NCBI GenBank assembly: GCA_022825235.1
Contig: JAJDYI010000038.1
Span: forward strand, 1-43,925
Direction: 5' to 3'
Origin: Alphaproteobacteria bacterium
GTDB lineage: Bacteria; Pseudomonadota; Alphaproteobacteria; TMED109
Length of the DNA stretch: 43,925 bases
Shown: one piece after another, positions 1 through 13,150 of the stretch
Position numbering within the stretch: the stretch's first letter is position 1
Layout: each line of letters begins with the position of its first letter
Position numbers and translations under genes: made by a program
Notes under the pieces: generated by a model
Databases searched by the model: none
What the model saw: the letters and a program-made list of their open reading frames with translations, nothing else
Told to the model about the DNA's origin: nothing

Positions 1-1749
1 CTCTTCCGAGTAGTGCGTGGCCGTCTGCGCAATCACGAGCTGCGCCCCGACCGGCAATTCGTAACCCTCCACTACGCAGGTATTCATCACCGTGCGCATC
101 GACATGGGCACGATCGGCGACATCCGCAGAGCCTCCATCAGCACTCGGTGGGTCACGTCGATCCGGTCCGGACTGAAGTCATCCTTGCTGGGGTCGCCCT
201 CGGCCCACAACGCATCCGCTTCAGCCGTGACTCGCTCGTACAACTCGGGATTTTGCAGCAGCCAGTAAAGGGCGAAGCCAATCTGATCGCCCATGTACAT
301 GGCGGTCATCAAGATCGCCCCAAGCGGCAGCGACAGGTCCGATTCGGGCAGGAATTGGGGATCGGACGCGTGCAGGGCCAGATACGCGTCCACCACGTCC
401 TCATGCTTCCCGACCCGCTGCGCGGCCGTATGCGTCCTTTGCATGCGGTCCACGATCCGTTGCATGGCCTTCGCCCGGCGGCGCATCGACGGGGTCTTGA
501 GCATGAATCGCGGCATCATCTTGATGATGCCTACATTGAGCACCCGTACCTTGTATTCGAGCGCTTCGACAATCTCGGCCTGGGTGTCAATGTTTGCCAG
601 GAGCGGCGATGTCTGCGCATTCACAAATGGCCGCAGCATCACCTGCACCGGCATCGTGGTGCCGACGTCCCAACTCGCCATGTGCGTGCGAGCTAAGTGA
701 TAGACCTCGTCCAGACGCTTGGTCAAAGTCTTGCGAGAGTAGGCGGTATTCAGCGACTTGCGAAAGCGAAAGTGGTCGGCACCGTCAATCGAGTGCATTG
801 AGCGCGACACGCCATACGCCTTGTCGACGCCCTCGAAGTACTCCTTCGACCGCAAGTACACCCGCCCCTTGCGATGGGCCCATTCATTCGTCTTCAACCC
901 TGCCAGGACAATCAGGTTCTGGCGGAACGGGAGCCGAAGCTCGAACACCGGACCGTACTTGTCGGCCAGATTGGCGAACCCTGCCGGCAGCCTTCCCTCT
1001 CGCAGTTCGCGATTGAACACCAGATCACGCAGGGACACGGTTGGAATCGGCTTGGTCAGCGAGGGCCGGCGAAGCGAGGGCGCGAGGATGCTCTGGCTCA
1101 CCGCTGCCGCAATCGCCTGGCCGATCAGGTCCATCTGGCTGACGAACCGAATCCGTTCTTCCGCCTCCTCGTCGATCTGATACATCAAGTGGAACACATG
1201 GCAGGCATTGACGAGGCCGGTGATGATCACGTCGCGCGGACTCGGGATCTCGTCCGTGAAGATGATCCTGGTCAGCTGGTCCTTCACGAACTCGCCCGAT
1301 AGGTGGTCTTCTCCTGACGGCGTTTCGCCCGACCGCTGGCGCCTGGCAAAGGTGTAGAAACCGCCCGGGTCGACGTTGAGAATCTGCCGCCGGACGAGCC
1401 CGTCCAGCGCTTCGGAGATCACCGACTCGGACTGTGGGGCAAGCCGCTCAATCCAGTAGCGGGCATCGTGCCGTTCCGTTTCGGTCGCGATCTCCCGCAA
1501 GATCGGGTCGAGCAGCGGCCGACCCGTGTCGGTCGCATCCAACAGGGTCAGCGACTCCAGATCGGTGTCGATGCGACCCAGCAGCGACAGTTCACCCAGC
1601 GCGGCGCCGACCATCGCGCAGTTCAGGTTCCAGCCGGGTACCTGACGAAAATAACCTCTCTCTTCGTCCAGCAGCGCCAGCAGCAGCTCTTCCGGCAGAC
1701 TCAGCGCGGACGCCCCCTGGCCCGCTCCAACCGCTGTTTCGTGAGTCAC
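1..1749 (-). CDS. GPP34 (GOLPH3-like) domain fused to cytochrome P450, C-terminus beyond window
   Basis: One open frame runs from GTG at 1749 to the left edge (583 codons, no stop). Residues about 16-220 match the GPP34/GOLPH3 family: LPEELLLALLDEERGY near residue 18, then GAALGELSLLGRIDTD, and an IPSPRDV segment at 168-174. From about residue 225 the protein is a cytochrome P450: C-helix H326-x3-R330, an I-helix with G487-D488-Q489 where A/G-x-D/E-T-T is usual, and the K-helix E539-x2-R542. The heme-cysteine loop lies off the window. P450s are heme monooxygenases; eukaryotic GPP34 proteins bind phosphoinositide at Golgi membranes, and bacterial ones are poorly understood. The fusion suggests a membrane-directed monooxygenase, which is inference. 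A Rieske oxygenase lies upstream on the same strand. The GTG start is the only good in-frame one near the domain; a purine-rich GGAAGGA lies about 14 nt upstream. Confidence 0.85.
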   Translation of the reverse strand, partial: MTHETAVGAGQGASALSLPEELLLALLDEERGYFRQVPGWNLNCAMVGAALGELSLLGRIDTDLESLTLLDATDTGRPLLDPILREIATETERHDARYWIERLAPQSESVISEALDGLVRRQILNVDPGGFYTFARRQRSGETPSGEDHLSGEFVKDQLTRIIFTDEIPSPRDVIITGLVNACHVFHLMYQIDEEAEERIRFVSQMDLIGQAIAAAVSQSILAPSLRRPSLTKPIPTVSLRDLVFNRELREGRLPAGFANLADKYGPVFELRLPFRQNLIVLAGLKTNEWAHRKGRVYLRSKEYFEGVDKAYGVSRSMHSIDGADHFRFRKSLNTAYSRKTLTKRLDEVYHLARTHMASWDVGTTMPVQVMLRPFVNAQTSPLLANIDTQAEIVEALEYKVRVLNVGIIKMMPRFMLKTPSMRRRAKAMQRIVDRMQRTHTAAQRVGKHEDVVDAYLALHASDPQFLPESDLSLPLGAILMTAMYMGDQIGFALYWLLQNPELYERVTAEADALWAEGDPSKDDFSPDRIDVTHRVLMEALRMSPIVPMSMRTVMNTCVVEGYELPVGAQLVIAQTATHYSEE

Positions 1750-2105: not shown

Positions 2106-3134
2106 CTAGCCTTTCTCGCCGACGGAGTCGTCGGGGTAAAACTGCCTGCAATAGCGTCGATATCTGCCGATGTCGCCGTCGGAACGAGACAGCCGGGGAT
2201 TCGGTCGGTGCTGCCGTCGTTGCCAGATGACGACATCCTGCTGCACATCCTGCATTTGCGCGGAAACCACCAGCCTGTTCATGACCCTGGTGCGGAACCT
2301 GGGTGGCAGGAAGCCGAGACCAACGATCAGCCGCTTGGGCCTTCGTATTTCCCGAATCTGACTGGCCAGCGACAGATCAACCAACGTGCCGTCGACGGGT
2401 GTGGCGAGGACCCACAAGCGGAGATCCATGCCAATGGAATGCTCCTGGACATCGACGAACGAGTAACCCAGCCCGTGGACGTGGGCTGCGGCCGAAATGC
2501 GATAGACGCTGTCGATGAAACCCGCGATGGGGCGGTGGCGGACGAAATCGAAACGGGCGAGAAGATAGGAACCGTCAACCGTCGTGGAACCGACAGGCTG
2601 CACGTTGTCGTAGCCGTGCACATGTCGCAGGTGGGCCAGGTCCACGGAGTTCTCCGCGATTTCCTGCACGTGGCCGGGAAACCGGACGGTCCGGATTTCC
2701 AAGTCGCACCATGCCTCTTCGACCGGCGGCGCTTCCGGCAAGTGCCATTGCGGCGGGCGGCCAGCGGCACTCCACCAGGCAAAGACGAGGCCTTGAATGA
2801 CCCGCGTATCATAGACGTTGAGCCGCACGGATCGCGGCGGCGGTGCATAGGGGGTTGCGACACAGTTGCCGGCGATATCGTACGTGAAGCCGTGAAAGGG
2901 GCAGACGAGACAGCCTTTGCGCACACGGCCGCCGACGGCCGGGCCCAGGGCGGAACCCATGTGCGGGCATACCGATTCGGCCACGCAGACGCCTCCGTCG
3001 TCGTCGCTCCACGCGACGATGTTTTGCCCAAGCCATTGCCGTTCAAGCAATTCCCCCTTGGCCAAGGCGTGCTGACTCGCTACGAAGTACCACCCCTCGG
3101 GAAATGGGAAGAGCGCAGCCGTCCCGTCACCCAC
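2106..3134 (-). CDS. Rieske [2Fe-2S] ring-hydroxylating oxygenase, KshA/Neverland-like
   Basis: A 342-residue protein. The N-terminal Rieske domain has C56-P-H58 and C78-P-F-H81-G, which hold the [2Fe-2S] cluster. The C-terminal catalytic domain has N162-x2-D165-x2-H168-x4-H173, the bridging Asp and the two His ligands of the mononuclear iron; an Asp in DVQQD near the C-terminus fits the third ligand. Length and layout match single-component Rieske oxygenases of the sterol/steroid type (KshA, DAF-36/Neverland), which take electrons from a separate reductase not seen here. The P450 fusion follows about 350 bp downstream on the same strand, so the two may act on the same hydrophobic substrate; the substrate is not determinable from sequence. 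A weak similarity to cholesterol desaturases is family-level knowledge, not proof. Confidence 0.88.
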   Translation of the reverse strand: MGDGTAALFPFPEGWYFVASQHALAKGELLERQWLGQNIVAWSDDDGGVCVAESVCPHMGSALGPAVGGRVRKGCLVCPFHGFTYDIAGNCVATPYAPPPRSVRLNVYDTRVIQGLVFAWWSAAGRPPQWHLPEAPPVEEAWCDLEIRTVRFPGHVQEIAENSVDLAHLRHVHGYDNVQPVGSTTVDGSYLLARFDFVRHRPIAGFIDSVYRISAAAHVHGLGYSFVDVQEHSIGMDLRLWVLATPVDGTLVDLSLASQIREIRRPKRLIVGLGFLPPRFRTRVMNRLVVSAQMQDVQQDVVIWQRRQHRPNPRLSRSDGDIGRYRRYCRQFYPDDSVGEKG

Positions 3135-3914: not shown

Positions 3915-6242
3915 ATGACACTAGATTCCTGCATTGCGCTCGTCGTCGGTCGCCGGTGGCTGACCATCGTGCTCTCCTTAGTTGCAATGCTGGCCCTTGC
4001 CGCGGGCGCCCAATACATCACGGTCGTTGACGTCGACGTTCGGAATCACTTCAGCAAAGACGATCCGCACATCGTCGCGCTCGACCAGTTGGAAGCCACC
4101 TACTCGCTCTCCGACGCCGCGTTGATCGTCGTGGCGCCGCAAAGCGGTACCGCCTTCACGCCGGAAGCACTCGTCGCCATCGAAGAGCTCACCGACCGGT
4201 TATGGCGGACGCCCTACGTCACGCGCGTTGACTCGATCACCAACTATTCGCACAGCGAAGGTCTCGAGGACGAGCTGATCGTCGCACCCCTGATCGACGA
4301 CGCCAATTCCCTCAGCGACAGCGATATCGAACGAATCCGGGAAATTGCACTCGGTACCGAAGAAGTCGCAGGGCGCTTCGTCTCCCGGGACGGTCGCGTC
4401 GCCGGGTTGGTCGTCAGCGTGGCGCTTCCCGAGGACCGACAGCTGGGAAGATTCGAGGTCACCGACTTCCTCCACGGCACCGCCGCCGAGGCGAGAGAGC
4501 AGTATCCGACCATCGACTACCACCTGACCGGCGAACTCATCCTCAACCGCGCCATGAAACAGGCGATCGACGATGACATGGGTGTCCTCGCGCCCATCAC
4601 GCTCGGCACCATGCTGCTCGTCGCCATCGTCCTGCTGCGCTCGCTGTGGGGAATGGTGGCGATTCTCGTGATGCTGATCGCGGTCATGCTGTCCGCGCTG
4701 GGCTTCACCGGCTGGGTCGGCCTGAAGCTGTACGGCGAGAGCGGCGCGGCGCTGTTCGTGTTGATGGCGGTCACCGTCGCGCATTCGGTGCACATCATCG
4801 AGGGGATGCGGGCGGGGCTGCGCCAGAGCATGGACCGTCCGCAGGCGGCGGTTCATTCCCTGCAGGCCAATGTGTGGCCAGTTCTCCTGACGTCGGTGAC
4901 GACCGCAATCGGCTTCCTCAGCCTCAATTTCGCGGAGATGCCGCCTTTCCGGGTGATGGGCAACATGGTGGCGTTCGGCGCGATGGCCGCCTTCGTCTTT
5001 TCGGTCACGCTTCTGCCCGCGTTTCTGACCGTCGTGCCAATGCGTGGCGGGTCCGCACCTCCGGGAAAGGCAGACCTCTTCGATCGCCTGGCGCGGTTCG
5101 TGATTTCCTACCGCACGATCCTGCTTTGGTCCGTCGCCGCCGTGATGGTCGTGCTCATCGCCGGAATCTCGCGGATTGAGCTGCAGGAGAACTGGCTGGA
5201 GCTGCTCGACGAGAGCTACGAGTTCCGGCGCTCCACGGATTTCGTGAGCGAGAATTTTACGGGCGTGGAAACGTATGAGTACTCGCTCAACTCCGGGCGG
5301 GAGGGCGGCATCACGGATGTTGAATACCTCCGGCAGGTGGATGCTTTTGCGGAGTGGAGTCGGTCACAGCCGGAGGTTGCCCACGTCTTCGCCATCTCCG
5401 ACATCATGAAGCGCCTGAACAAGAATCTGCATGGTGACGATCCCGACTTCTACGTGCTCCCGGACGACTCCGACCTCGCTGCGCAGTACCTGCTGCTCTA
5501 CGAGTTCTCCCTGCCGGTCGGTCGCGACCTGAACAACCTCATCGATGTGGAACGGTCGTCGACGCGCGTGTCGGTCGTGCTCAAGAGCCTCACCACCCGA
5601 GAAAAGGTCGACCTTGACAATCGCACGCAAGCCTGGTTCCGGCAGAACGCGCCTGATCTGGAAACCCAGGCTACCGGCGTTTCCGTGGTCGGGGCCCATT
5701 CAATCCAACGGAACATCGAGGGCATGCTGCGGGGCACGATCGCGGCAATGGCCATCGTGTCCCTGCTCCTGCTCTTTGTCTTCCGAAGCATACGTCTCGG
5801 CCTGATCAGCCTGGTCCCAAATTTCGCGCCAGCTGCCATGGCGATGGGCCTTTGGGGATATCTGGTGGGAGAAGTCGGCGTTGCAGCGTCAGTCGTCACC
5901 GCAATCGCGTTCGGCATCATCGTGGACGACACGATCCACTTCATGACCAAGTATGTCGGCGCCAGGAAACGCGGGCTGTTGCCCTCCGAGTCCGTCCAGT
6001 CCGCCTTTGGCGCGGTCGGCAAGGCACTGACGGCGACGACGGTCGTGTTCGCACTGGGATTCATGGTGTTCGCAGCGTCGGGACTGGTGACCAACCAAGC
6101 GCTCGGCCTGCTCGTGGGGATCACCGTCATCATTGCGCTGCTGGCGGACTTCCTGTTCCTCCCGCCGCTACTGATGGCGCTCGATGCGACGAAGGAAACG
6201 ACTGCACAGATCAGGGAACGCCTGAGCCGATCGACCGGATAG
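3915..6242 (+). CDS. MMPL/RND-family (HpnN/Patched-like) transporter
   Basis: A 775-residue inner-membrane protein of the RND superfamily, MMPL branch. A first membrane helix lies at residues about 14-34, followed by a periplasmic loop of roughly 200 residues. A block of closely spaced helices spans about 220-380 (sterol-sensing-domain-like, with a GAALFVLMAVTVAHSVH segment). A second periplasmic loop follows, then a second helix block at about 610-760 with GIIVDDTIHFMTKY, the acidic proton-relay-type segment of TM4/TM10 in this superfamily. Such proteins move hydrophobic molecules (hopanoids, lipids, sterols) out of the inner membrane by proton motive force. The next gene encodes a LolA-like periplasmic protein, a frequent partner of this subfamily. 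The cargo is not shown by the sequence. Confidence 0.88.
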   Translation: MTLDSCIALVVGRRWLTIVLSLVAMLALAAGAQYITVVDVDVRNHFSKDDPHIVALDQLEATYSLSDAALIVVAPQSGTAFTPEALVAIEELTDRLWRTPYVTRVDSITNYSHSEGLEDELIVAPLIDDANSLSDSDIERIREIALGTEEVAGRFVSRDGRVAGLVVSVALPEDRQLGRFEVTDFLHGTAAEAREQYPTIDYHLTGELILNRAMKQAIDDDMGVLAPITLGTMLLVAIVLLRSLWGMVAILVMLIAVMLSALGFTGWVGLKLYGESGAALFVLMAVTVAHSVHIIEGMRAGLRQSMDRPQAAVHSLQANVWPVLLTSVTTAIGFLSLNFAEMPPFRVMGNMVAFGAMAAFVFSVTLLPAFLTVVPMRGGSAPPGKADLFDRLARFVISYRTILLWSVAAVMVVLIAGISRIELQENWLELLDESYEFRRSTDFVSENFTGVETYEYSLNSGREGGITDVEYLRQVDAFAEWSRSQPEVAHVFAISDIMKRLNKNLHGDDPDFYVLPDDSDLAAQYLLLYEFSLPVGRDLNNLIDVERSSTRVSVVLKSLTTREKVDLDNRTQAWFRQNAPDLETQATGVSVVGAHSIQRNIEGMLRGTIAAMAIVSLLLLFVFRSIRLGLISLVPNFAPAAMAMGLWGYLVGEVGVAASVVTAIAFGIIVDDTIHFMTKYVGARKRGLLPSESVQSAFGAVGKALTATTVVFALGFMVFAASGLVTNQALGLLVGITVIIALLADFLFLPPLLMALDATKETTAQIRERLSRSTG

Positions 6243-6449: not shown

Positions 6450-6556
6450 GCTCATACAGGCGCAGGAGTCGATGTGATCCGCTCGCTGCTCGGGCTGTTC
6501 CGTCGAGTTCCTACGTTCCGTGGTGTGGCCACGGCGGTCGACAGGAGGCAACGGTC

Positions 6557-7372
6557 ATTCGCGCTTCTCTTCCCCACTCGGTCCTGGCGTCTGCTGGGAT
6601 CCTGGTTGCCATCTTCGCCTGGACGGTCGGGCCTCCGGTCGGGCAGGCGGAAACTGCCGAAGAAGCCGGTCTCCGGATCGCAACCGAAGCCCGTGACCGG
6701 CAAAAGGGTTTCGGCAACTTCACTTCCAACATGACCATGACCCTGCGCACAAAGCGGGGACAGGAAAGCAATCGCGAAATGCGCCTCAAGGTCATGGAGG
6801 TCGAAGACGACGGGGATCGCAGCGTGTTCGTGTTCGACCGCCCGCGCGACGTCAAGGGTACGGCATTTCTCGTGCACGCCCACAAGGACGGGCCGGACGA
6901 TCAGTGGCTCTATCTTCCCGCCCTGAAACGGGTCAAGCGCATCAGCTCCGCCAATCAATCCGGCTCATTCATGGGGAGCGAGTTCTCGTACGAGGATCTC
7001 GGTGCCGCGGAAGTCGAGAAATACACGCATCGCTACCTGCAGGACGAGCCTTGCGGCGAACTCCAGTGCTTTGTTCTCGAGCGAATCCCGGTGAGCGAGG
7101 ATTCAGGGTACTCCCGTCAGCTGGTTTGGCTTGACAAGGACGAGCTGCGCTCCATGCAGGTCCAGTACTTCGACCGCAGGAACGAGCATTTCAAGACGAT
7201 GGCCATCGAAGACTACGCGCAATACCTGGATCGTTTCTGGCGGAGCAGCAGGATCACGATGACCAACCATCTCACGGGCAAGAGCACCGTGCTGGTCTGG
7301 TCGGACTACGAGTTCGGGACTGACCTTGATGCTCGCGATTTCACCCGGACGGCGCTCCAGCGCGTGCGATAG
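6557..7372 (+). CDS. Outer-membrane lipoprotein-sorting (LolA-like) protein, probable ATT start
   Basis: A protein of about 271 residues with a signal peptide (hydrophobic stretch VLASAGILVAIFAWTVG, cleavage near VGQA-ETAEE) and a LolA-like fold seen in many MMPL-linked proteins. The pattern DQWLYLPALKRVKRIS followed by SGSFMGSEFSYEDL is characteristic of the LolA_like family (PF17131). It is expected to carry lipid or lipoprotein across the periplasm for the upstream MMPL pump. The start is unusual: no ATG, GTG or TTG lies in frame between the upstream region and the signal peptide. However, AGGAGG at 6543-6548 sits exactly 8 nt before ATT at 6557, which gives an ideal signal peptide beginning M-R-A-S. 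ATT starts are rare but known (infC). Longer in-frame readings reach into non-coding sequence. Confidence 0.8.
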   Translation: MRASLPHSVLASAGILVAIFAWTVGPPVGQAETAEEAGLRIATEARDRQKGFGNFTSNMTMTLRTKRGQESNREMRLKVMEVEDDGDRSVFVFDRPRDVKGTAFLVHAHKDGPDDQWLYLPALKRVKRISSANQSGSFMGSEFSYEDLGAAEVEKYTHRYLQDEPCGELQCFVLERIPVSEDSGYSRQLVWLDKDELRSMQVQYFDRRNEHFKTMAIEDYAQYLDRFWRSSRITMTNHLTGKSTVLVWSDYEFGTDLDARDFTRTALQRVR

Positions 7373-7978: not shown

Positions 7979-8392
7979 TCAGCATTGCCTGCCAATCACG
8001 GGAACTCCGACGGCCCCTGCCGCCCCTGAGAGCCGCTGGTCGAGCGTGGCCAACGGCAGTCCGCGTCGGCTCGCAACTTCCAGGTAGGCGGCGTCGTAGA
8101 CGCTCAGAGCATGTTCACGCGCAAGCCCCAGAACCAGAGCCTCATCGTGGCCATGGTCAGTCGCGATGCCAAGGGCCGCGCAGTCTGCAAGCGTCTCCGC
8201 AACCTGCTGTGCGGTGATCCGTCCGCGACGTTCGTTCGTCAGCAACGCATTGCGCAGTTCATACCACCAAATCACGGGCGCCACGCCACCGTCGCTGACG
8301 ACACGGCGCATGGCCTCAGTTGCGACCGGCTCATCCTCATCGGCCAGAGACCAAGCCAGGAACACCGAGCAGTCCACCACGACGGACATCAA
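7979..8392 (-). CDS. VapC-family PIN-domain toxin
   Basis: A 137-residue PIN-domain protein with the acidic active-site set D7, E45, D100 and D118, as in VapC endoribonucleases, which cleave tRNA or rRNA when freed from their antitoxin. Its ATG overlaps the stop of the upstream Phd-type antitoxin by 4 bp (ATGA), the normal translational coupling of such pairs. The frame is complete and undamaged. Expression is probably controlled from the palindromic operator at 8651-8669. Confidence 0.85.
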   Translation of the reverse strand: MMSVVVDCSVFLAWSLADEDEPVATEAMRRVVSDGGVAPVIWWYELRNALLTNERRGRITAQQVAETLADCAALGIATDHGHDEALVLGLAREHALSVYDAAYLEVASRRGLPLATLDQRLSGAAGAVGVPVIGRQC

Positions 8393-10409: not shown

Positions 10410-11735
10410 CTAGGGAAATGGGTCGCTCCGTCCCACCGCGACCCAGACCATGGCGTCCTCGATGAGGAGACGCCGGGCCACGCGGCGGACCTCCTCGACC
10501 GTGACGCCTTCTACCAGTCCGTTACGGCGCTCGAGGTAGTCGATACCCAAATCGTTCGTCTGCATCGCCACGAGGAAACCGGCGATCTCGGACGTGCTGT
10601 CGAGCGCCAGCGGAAACGAGCCTGTGATGTAGCGCTTGGCATCGGCAAGCTCCTCGGCGGTCAGGCCCTCCGTCGCCGTTCGCCGGATCACGTCCCGCAC
10701 CACCGCAACCGTCTCCCCGGCGCTCTGATCACGCGTCGAGGTGGCGCCAATCAAGAGGGGGGCGCGCTTCGCGTCGGCCAAGTACGTGTAGATGCTGTAG
10801 GCGAGACCGCGTTTTCCCCTGACTTCGCGTTCTAGCCGCGTCTCCGGCATGCTGCCGCCCAAGACTGCATTCAGCACGAAGGCCGGGAAGAAATCCGCGT
10901 CGTTGCGGGCGATCCCGGAGAGTCCAAACACGAGCTCCGTCTGCGGGATGTCCATCGGGACGTACACGCTCTGCCCCTCGAAGCTCCCGGGTTCTGGCAT
11001 GTCCTCCGGCAGACCACCGACTGCAAGATCGCCGAAGGCGAGATCGAGCACCTGAGCCAATGCCGCCGCGTCAATGTCGCCCGCAACACCGACGGTCAGC
11101 CGCCCGCGGACCAGGCGCTCCTCCGCCGCCGCGCGCAGATCTTCCACGCCGATTTCCGCAAGACTCGCCTGCGTCCCGTCGGTCGGGCGACCGTACGGCC
11201 CGTCACCGAACACCAGGGAAAACCAGCGGGCACGCCCGAGGCTCCCGGGACGGGTTTCGTTCTGGGCGCGGACGGCCTCGAGCTGGCTGCGGATGCGGGC
11301 GACCGGTTCGTGGTCAAAACGCGGCCGCGCCAGCGCGTGCCCGAGCAACTCCGCGGCCTCCATGACGTTCTCGCTCAGCGTGTGCAGGGTACCGTACAAG
11401 CTGTCGCGTCCCGCCGAGACGGATAGCCCGATCGCCCGATCGTCCAGGCGCTCGCGAAACGCGACCGAGTCGTAGGGACCGGCGCCCTCGTCGAGCAGCG
11501 CGGTCATGAACTGTGACAGTCCCTCCTGGCCGGGCGCGTCGAGAGCCGCGCCGCCGGCAAAGCGAAACGCCAGGGAAACGATCGGGAGCGACGAATCCCG
11601 GCGCAGCCAGGCCTCGGTCCCCAGCGGCGATACCACCACCTCGTTCGGGGCGGAATCGGCCGCCACGCCTGCGCACGGAAAGGCGAGGCTTCCCGCGAGC
11701 ACGACCGCAGCGAGGGTTTGCCCGCGGCGCATCAC
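10410..11735 (-). CDS. M16 peptidase-like protein, inactive-subunit type
   Basis: A 441-residue periplasmic M16 (pitrilysin/insulinase) family protein with an N-terminal signal peptide (LAAVVLAGSLAFPCAGVAA). The zinc motif HxxEH is missing: the corresponding segment reads GLSQFMTALLDEG. The C-terminal M16 domain with LEREVRGKRGLAYSI is well kept. It therefore looks like the non-catalytic partner of the upstream active subunit, a common two-gene arrangement in proteobacteria. Its ATG overlaps the stop of the active subunit by 4 bp, implying co-translation. Together they should form a peptide-degrading clamshell in the periplasm. Confidence 0.88.
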   Translation of the reverse strand: MMRRGQTLAAVVLAGSLAFPCAGVAADSAPNEVVVSPLGTEAWLRRDSSLPIVSLAFRFAGGAALDAPGQEGLSQFMTALLDEGAGPYDSVAFRERLDDRAIGLSVSAGRDSLYGTLHTLSENVMEAAELLGHALARPRFDHEPVARIRSQLEAVRAQNETRPGSLGRARWFSLVFGDGPYGRPTDGTQASLAEIGVEDLRAAAEERLVRGRLTVGVAGDIDAAALAQVLDLAFGDLAVGGLPEDMPEPGSFEGQSVYVPMDIPQTELVFGLSGIARNDADFFPAFVLNAVLGGSMPETRLEREVRGKRGLAYSIYTYLADAKRAPLLIGATSTRDQSAGETVAVVRDVIRRTATEGLTAEELADAKRYITGSFPLALDSTSEIAGFLVAMQTNDLGIDYLERRNGLVEGVTVEEVRRVARRLLIEDAMVWVAVGRSDPFP

Positions 11736-13150
11736 TCGGCACGCTCCGGCCTGAGAATGCCCGTCACCGTTACCGGATCGTCCAGGAGGTTGCGGGCGGC
11801 GTCGGCCACCTCGGCGACCGTGATCGAGCGAACCAGATCAATGTAGCCGTCGATGTCCTCCAGCGTGCCACCCTTGATGAGGGTTCTCCCGACGAAATCG
11901 GCGGTGCCGGAGACATCGTCGCGGGCGTAGATCTCCCCGGCGGCAAACCGGTAGGCGGCGCGCTCGACCTCCCGTTGCGCCACGCCCGCCTCGGCCACCC
12001 GCTCGAGCTCGGCGTTCACCGCGGCCTCGAGGTCCGCGAGGTCCGTACCGTCCGTGGGCATCGCGTACACGAGGAAAAACCCTCCGTCCCGGTTGTCGCC
12101 GCCAAAGTAGGCGCCGGCCGACAGGGCGATCTTGCGGTCGACGACGAGCGCCCGGCGAAGGCGGCCGGAAGCCCCGCCAAGCACCGCCGCGAGGACGTCG
12201 AGGGTGGCCGCCTCGCGTTCGGCACCCGCGAAGTAGCCCTTCGCCTGATACTGCCGCGACCACCGGGGGCGGACGATCCGTGGGTCTTCCATCTCGACGG
12301 TCACGCGAGCCCGATGCGGGGGTTCCGCCGGCCTCGACGGCACCGGCTCACCGCCCGCCGGCACGGCGCCGAACGTCCGTTCGGCAAGCGGGCGCAGCGA
12401 CTCCGCGTCGATGTCGCCCGCAACGACCAGCAGGGCGTTGGCCGGTCCGTAGTGGCGGCGATAGTACGTCTCCACCTGTTCCTGGGTGAGGGCTTCGATC
12501 TCGTGGCGCCAGCCGATGAGTGGGCGGCCGTAGGGATGGGCCTGCCACGACGCTGCGCGGAGCTGCTCCCGAAACAGGCCCGACGGCGAGTTTTCGGTCC
12601 GTTGCAGGCGCTCCTCGAGGACGACCTGCCGTTCGGCCTCGAAGTTCTCCGTCTCGAACACCACCCCGGTCATGCGATCGGCCTCGAGGCGCATCACGGT
12701 CTCCAGGCGGTCACGCGCGATGGTGGCGTAATAGGCGGTGACGTCGGCCGCCGTGTAGGCATTCGTGCTGCCTCCGTTCCGGCCAATGATCCGCTTGTAC
12801 TCCCCCTCCTCGGTGCTGGACGTGCCATTGAACATCAGATGTTCGATGAAGTGCGCCATGCCTGATTGCCCAGGCGGGTCGTCGGCCGCGCCAAACGCGT
12901 AGTACACCGCGTGGTGCACCACGCCGGGCCGTTCCATAGGCACGGCCACCACCCGCATACCGTTGGCCAGCACGAACGATTCGGCACCGAGGCCATCGGC
13001 GGCGGGCGCCCCTGGCAACCCGAGCCACACCCCGAGAATGACGGCGGCCCGCAGGCGTGGGCGCCATCGCGTCCGCGACGTTCCCGGGCCGGATGTCGGC
13101 GGCGCGGGGACGGCACGGCATCTCTGACCGGCATAAGGATCGGTGATCAC
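11732..13150 (-). CDS. M16 zinc metallopeptidase, active subunit
   Basis: A 472-residue M16 family zinc protease. The inverted zinc motif is H100-F-I-E103-H104, with the distal Glu in ERQVVLEE at residues 173-180. The RNGGSTNAYTAADVTAY segment is typical of the family. A signal peptide lies unusually far in (hydrophobic AAVILGVWLGLPGAPA at about 35-50). The true start may be later than 13150, but no alternative in-frame start was found, so the N-terminus is uncertain. It is translationally coupled to the inactive subunit downstream. Confidence 0.88.
   Translation of the reverse strand: MITDPYAGQRCRAVPAPPTSGPGTSRTRWRPRLRAAVILGVWLGLPGAPAADGLGAESFVLANGMRVVAVPMERPGVVHHAVYYAFGAADDPPGQSGMAHFIEHLMFNGTSSTEEGEYKRIIGRNGGSTNAYTAADVTAYYATIARDRLETVMRLEADRMTGVVFETENFEAERQVVLEERLQRTENSPSGLFREQLRAASWQAHPYGRPLIGWRHEIEALTQEQVETYYRRHYGPANALLVVAGDIDAESLRPLAERTFGAVPAGGEPVPSRPAEPPHRARVTVEMEDPRIVRPRWSRQYQAKGYFAGAEREAATLDVLAAVLGGASGRLRRALVVDRKIALSAGAYFGGDNRDGGFFLVYAMPTDGTDLADLEAAVNAELERVAEAGVAQREVERAAYRFAAGEIYARDDVSGTADFVGRTLIKGGTLEDIDGYIDLVRSITVAEVADAARNLLDDPVTVTGILRPERAE

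Follow-up and report, generated by a model that had tools for sequence, protein, structure and literature searches.

A GPP34-cytochrome P450 fusion as a probable membrane-docked sterol oxidase in horizontally moving bacterial gene clusters

Why would a bacterium join a GPP34 domain, homologous to that of eukaryotic GOLPH3 and Vps74, to a cytochrome P450, and on which substrate would such an enzyme act? The window analyzed here (43,925 nucleotides, one whole contig, C75 of genome G000) raises this question at its left edge, which is the contig end. As a sequence-only reading had noticed, a single unbroken minus-strand frame with both domains runs from a GTG at 1749 to this edge. The GTG was taken as the start because conservation among relatives begins there, and, since the gene is cut at the contig end, the haem-cysteine loop is absent from the window. 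The features of the gene and its neighbours are as follows.

1 to 1749, minus strand: GPP34-cytochrome P450 fusion gene, start GTG at 1749; the window covers 583 of some 677 residues, 3' end beyond the contig end
1096 to 1698, minus strand: GPP34 (GOLPH3/Vps74-like) domain (PF05719, E 2e-27; profile matches to 3kn1 and 2zii)
1030 to 1110, minus strand: junction, about residues 214-240, with the last GPP34 helix, a linker of about 10 residues (222-231) and the P450 start
4 to 984, minus strand: cytochrome P450 domain, ending before the haem-Cys loop (PF00067, E 4.5e-16)
760 to 774, minus strand: C-helix H326-F-R-F-R330, from the sequence; invariant in relatives
286 to 300, minus strand: I-helix M484-Y485-M-G487-D488, Met-Tyr in place of the acid-alcohol pair, then invariant Gly-Asp
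124 to 135, minus strand: K-helix E539-x-x-R542, invariant in relatives
2106 to 3134, minus strand: Rieske oxygenase with KshA_C domain, SdmA/KshA-like (PF00355, PF19298; NCBIfam SdmA-type model weak, E 1.4e-10)
3915 to 6242, plus strand: MMPL/RND transporter (PF03176, E 2.6e-35; sterol-sensing domain PF12349, 2.3e-4, below cut-off)
6482 to 7372, plus strand: LolA-like outer-membrane lipoprotein-sorting protein (PF17131, E 1.1e-61)

Elsewhere in the window, a PIN-type toxin-like frame (7979-8392) and two adjoining M16 peptidase-like genes (10410-13150, with an HxxEH-type motif in the upstream one) were recognized by eye.

Both domains, and not just one of them, stand well above their Pfam cut-offs: GPP34 covers residues 19-219 (97 bits against 29.1; profile positions 1-199 of 201) and the P450 covers residues 257-583 (59.1 bits against 22.8). 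At the junction, AlphaFold predicted a helix at 208-222 and a low-confidence stretch at 222-231, followed by the P450; this model, with a mean pLDDT of 64.6 and a poor P450 middle, served only for the junction and for the fold match of the P450 half. The same fusion was found in dozens of genomes, with 48 loci from one scan of public genomes, and 27 complete relatives align over the full length with both domains. The C-helix H-x3-R (H326/R330) and the E-x2-R (E539/R542), which had been pointed out from the letters alone, are invariant in all 27, and the haem cysteine is kept in 26, the exception being L090, where it is replaced by Arg (at about 9800) in an otherwise intact fusion. Between the window copy and six relatives, dN/dS is 0.10-0.38 in the GPP34 and P450 halves alike; by this measure, both halves are under purifying selection. 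The two domain scores, these ratios and the recurrence in dozens of genomes together mean that the fusion is not due to chance, and it is confirmed as real. An assembly or annotation artefact, which the cut of the window gene by the contig end might suggest, has virtually no chance of being the explanation and was ruled out, because dozens of independent intact copies carry a matching junction.

Genome G000 possesses four GPP34-P450 fusions, namely the window copy and those on contigs C14 (89% identical to the window copy; 5' end cut, haem loop GLGTHSCLG present), C55 (41%) and C11 (32%). Relatives occur in Alphaproteobacteria, Gammaproteobacteria, Gemmatimonadota, Acidobacteriota, Latescibacterota, Rhodothermota and Chloroflexota; the Chloroflexota counts are taken from frame lengths, and part of these frames was also read completely. 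Two candidates by frame length, in G707 (L203) and on contig C33 of G799 (L201), proved on reading not to be P450 fusions. Judging from bin names, we take most carriers to be, probably, sponge symbionts; the titles of the records do not state such an origin.

GPP34 was also seen in other company. In L012:5729-6673 (contig C34 of G000), it is joined to a Rieske ferredoxin-type domain (PF00355, E 3.5e-18), and the gene after it is of a PepSY-type membrane kind. In L014:3021-4355, L015:5713-7020 and L016:1969-3171, it is joined to a His-containing multi-pass membrane region with a weak cytochrome b561-like Pfam match, and in the latter two a multihaem c-type cytochrome gene lies next to it. L203:7289-9292 carries, by eye, GPP34 fused to an MFS-transporter-like region.

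The earlier statement that no GPP34-P450 fusion has been described is in line with the open-access literature, which was searched in full text; relative to that literature, the gene is a novel fusion form of families that are already known. That literature treats GPP34 mostly in insecticidal proteins or in the Golgi, and no description of the function of bacterial GPP34 domains was found in it.

The second half belongs to the P450 superfamily, with PF00067 over its cut-off, ExxR in the window and the cysteine loop in the C14 paralogue and nearly all complete relatives; the acid-alcohol pair is common among P450s but not universal and, hence, not strictly defining. The sequence-only reading had this pair altered and read G-D-Q in its place. 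The alteration stands, while the register was rejected: when the protein is aligned without gaps to CYP51 6mi0 and the C11 paralogue, Met484-Tyr485 falls at the pair position, and Gly487-Asp488-Gln sits just past it. Every member checked of this group, here type A, shows a hydrophobic residue at the acid site, Tyr at the alcohol site, one residue and then the invariant Gly-Asp, while the canonical Asp-Thr is retained in type B, a second and deeper group that includes, among others, C11, L126, L192 and L194. Because the pair is absent, non-monooxygenase chemistry (isomerization, desaturation or a peroxide-dependent reaction) can be proposed for type A, and the uniformity of its pattern would fit. 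Nevertheless, P450s devoid of the pair, such as P450eryF, can still hydroxylate, and the type B paralogues retain it, so we regard such chemistry as somewhat unlikely.

The PDB entries nearest to the P450 half of a complete relative are CYP51, and in structure comparison the P450 half of the model aligns with CYP51, CYP170 and CYP184 entries (Z about 22). The best sequence match and a near-best fold match are to the Methylococcus capsulatus CYP51, which is fused to a ferredoxin (6mi0, 7snm); there, too, a sterol P450 of a bacterium has an additional domain joined to it and a sterol-gene context. However, the extra domain here is an N-terminal GPP34 and not a ferredoxin, and the CYP51 signatures FGxGVx[YF]D and G[QHE]HT[ST] were found in 0 of 42 sequences. 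A CYP51 orthologue was ruled out on this ground, and, with these signatures absent, the reaction is not readable from the sequence.

As for the first half, the GPP34 profile matches GOLPH3 (3kn1, E 1.5e-16) as well as Vps74 (2zii), and the hydrophobic hairpin motif of these homologues is also kept in the fusion. R90, R171 and R174 belong to the PI4P pocket of GOLPH3 (PMC4414131). In the alignment to human GOLPH3, they correspond to Val, Glu and Ile of the window protein, so phosphoinositide binding, which had been carried over from the eukaryotic proteins, is not supported. Unlike GOLPH3 and Vps74, the GPP34 of the fusion is without the pocket arginines and is joined to an enzyme. In the hydropathy profile, no stretch stood out clearly as a transmembrane segment (the highest 19-residue mean was 1.4-1.8). 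Given the sterol-type context, the retained hairpin motif and the lack of a detected anchor, it is plausible that the fusion sits at the membrane surface, where it may dock to the membrane or to another GPP34. Alternatively, GPP34 might be merely an oligomerization or regulatory domain of a cytosolic enzyme. The loss of the PI4P arginines would suit this, as would the GOLPH3 beta-hairpin, which forms part of the monomer interface (PMC4414131), and the stand-alone GPP34 gene that is also present in 22 of the 23 fusion-bearing Chloroflexota genomes. On the other hand, the substrate class is hydrophobic, and genome G000 also has GPP34 fused to membrane proteins, which makes a cytosolic enzyme not very likely in our estimation.

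The view that the locus modifies and moves lipids is borne out by its relatives, since sterol genes occur throughout their neighbourhoods. Type A fusions lie in two recurrent clusters. Cluster I comprises the Rieske oxygenase, the fusion, an SdmB-like dehydrogenase and a steroid 5-alpha-reductase, together with MMPL/LolA-like or RND pumps; the order fusion, SdmB-like hydroxysteroid dehydrogenase (HSD), 5-alpha-reductase (PF02544, E 3e-52) is conserved, with short gaps in most loci, and the MMPL and LolA-like pair also adjoins the fusion in L049, L068 and L082. Cluster II, found in Chloroflexota and two alphaproteobacteria, comprises the fusion, a sterol methyltransferase (PF08498), MMPL, Rieske and an FAD oxidase. 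Among 57 loci, a set in which some records are truncated and others duplicates, the dehydrogenase is near the fusion in 30, the Rieske gene in 22, the reductase in 21 and MMPL in 15. No recognized sterol gene was present within the stretch read around the type B fusions L192 and L194. Immediately upstream of the fusion in L051 (6576-7916), transposase-like frames of integrase type were seen by eye.

The Rieske oxygenase and the SdmB-like dehydrogenase beside the fusion resemble the SdmA/SdmB system of C-4 sterol demethylation (PMC10202945). However, the neighbours here fall below both curated cut-offs of 600 (Rieske, 40.6 bits with the SdmA model; dehydrogenase, 210.7 bits, E 4.5e-62, with the SdmB model), and the set is enlarged by a P450 together with a steroid 5-alpha-reductase.

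Cyclase and squalene epoxidase genes adjoin some copies. The C55 fusion lies beside a squalene-epoxidase/oxidosqualene-cyclase (SE-OSC) fusion gene (TIGR03463, 727 bits, below the cut-off of 851; DCTAE motif), and the C11 fusion has a squalene-hopene cyclase on one side and a squalene epoxidase on the other. In L051 and L055, a single stretch holds the fusion together with the dehydrogenase, the reductase, the methyltransferase and SE-OSC. The SE-OSC frame in L010:10167-13577 joins both enzymes in 1136 residues and has full-length matches in several other sampled genomes. Among 385 sampled Alphaproteobacteria, GPP34-P450 is present in 4 of the 7 genomes with SE-OSC and in 2 of the 378 without it (Fisher p 6e-7, kinship ignored), and among 400 sampled Chloroflexota it is enriched in the three with SE-OSC (p 2e-4, kinship ignored). 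SE-OSC was not found in 20 of the 23 fusion-bearing Chloroflexota, which may, therefore, act on sterols from outside. A search for ERG24 gave no match, yet the control search likewise matched nothing anywhere.

These neighbours also bear on the substrate. A hopanoid, another non-sterol triterpenoid or a membrane isoprenoid is quite unlikely: the cyclase next to the C11 copy has the DxDDTA motif, the dehydrogenase beside the fusion has equal scores for hopanoid-associated HpnA and for SdmB, and many carriers are without SE-OSC, but the 5-alpha-reductase and sterol methyltransferase are of sterol type and the Rieske is of KshA/SdmA type. That the cluster serves steroid catabolism, i.e., growth on host sterols, instead of synthesis or remodelling, is very doubtful. 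The Rieske neighbour does carry a KshA_C domain, and steroid catabolism with divergent KshA clusters was reported from sponge metagenomes (PMC5790920). Nevertheless, the 2,3-dihydroxybiphenyl dioxygenase model, a stand-in for HsaC, gave at most 45 bits against a cut-off of 366 in this genome and genus, no ring-cleavage genes were recognized adjoining the fusion, and the neighbouring reductase, methyltransferase and cyclase genes speak for synthesis.

With a record labelled Gammaproteobacteria, the window copy shares 97% identity in the P450 half, and its synonymous divergence from records labelled Gemmatimonadota or Acidobacteriota is only about 0.24-0.28; such low divergence across phyla argues for recent transfer. 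Many carriers lie on contigs of 60-400 kb, and misbinning of metagenome-assembled genomes could inflate the apparent phylum range. Plasmids and viruses were rejected as vehicles, with no plasmid record covering 80% of the fusion and no match in IMG/VR. The two halves have, moreover, been exchanged as modules, as their sequence comparison demonstrates: Latescibacterota and some Rhodospirillales share 83-91% identity with the window group in the P450 half but only 51-57% in GPP34, while the pair L090 and L092 of a single bin agrees at 96% in GPP34 and at 61% in the P450. A shared history of the two halves was rejected when a P450 clade was forced onto the GPP34 tree (AU test, p 6.5e-7; clade chosen from the P450 tree, row L202 left out). 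The breakpoint of this exchange among relatives is the domain junction (about residues 214-240).

A real fusion, recurring in many phyla and set in sterol-gene clusters, is probably a membrane-docked sterol oxidase passing between species as part of a horizontally moving sterol-modification cluster, a reading to which we give reasonable though not high confidence and in which we infer the sterol substrate and the docking. The fusion would then be a haem monooxygenase-type enzyme, the P450 half of which oxidizes a sterol or closely related triterpenoid, after which the Rieske oxygenase, the SdmB-like dehydrogenase and the steroid 5-alpha-reductase (or sterol methyltransferase) may do further steps and the MMPL/LolA-like or RND pumps may move the product. 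The N-terminal GPP34 would replace the membrane anchor of eukaryotic sterol P450s and keep a soluble enzyme at the substrate-bearing membrane, via a face of GPP34 or as a pair with a second GPP34 protein. The cassette is presumed to move between phyla, with the recipient swapping or homogenizing the GPP34 half. In a bolder, speculative extension that we hold to be improbable, GPP34 is a general plug-in docking module, and the tagged P450, Rieske ferredoxin and b-type-cytochrome-like membrane protein would form, with the stand-alone GPP34, a triterpenoid membrane redox complex via GPP34-GPP34 contacts, the GPP34 part being matched to each host genome by recombination.

Kelly et al. reported transferred steroid clusters of about ten bacterial phyla from Ircinia sponge symbionts (PMC9531527). 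In the part of that report covered here, the likeness lies in sterol genes across phyla, evidence of transfer and dehydrogenase and methyltransferase neighbours; in contrast, the core of those clusters is ERG24-CYP51-LSS and GPP34 was not seen in that part, where the CYP51 alignment of 1698 nt is too short for a GPP34-P450 fusion. Brown et al. described bacterial sterol methyltransferases in sponge metagenomes (PMC10070321), and the word GPP34 is absent from their text. The fusion offers a testable role for bacterial GPP34 domains and suggests a bacterial route by which a soluble P450 can reach a substrate in the membrane. Should the carriers prove to be sponge symbionts, this oxidase, the 5-alpha-reductase and a methyltransferase-linked cluster would join the debate on the makers and modifiers of sponge sterols, which serve as molecular fossils, and that debate would then include bacteria in which the search for this type of cyclase gave no match.
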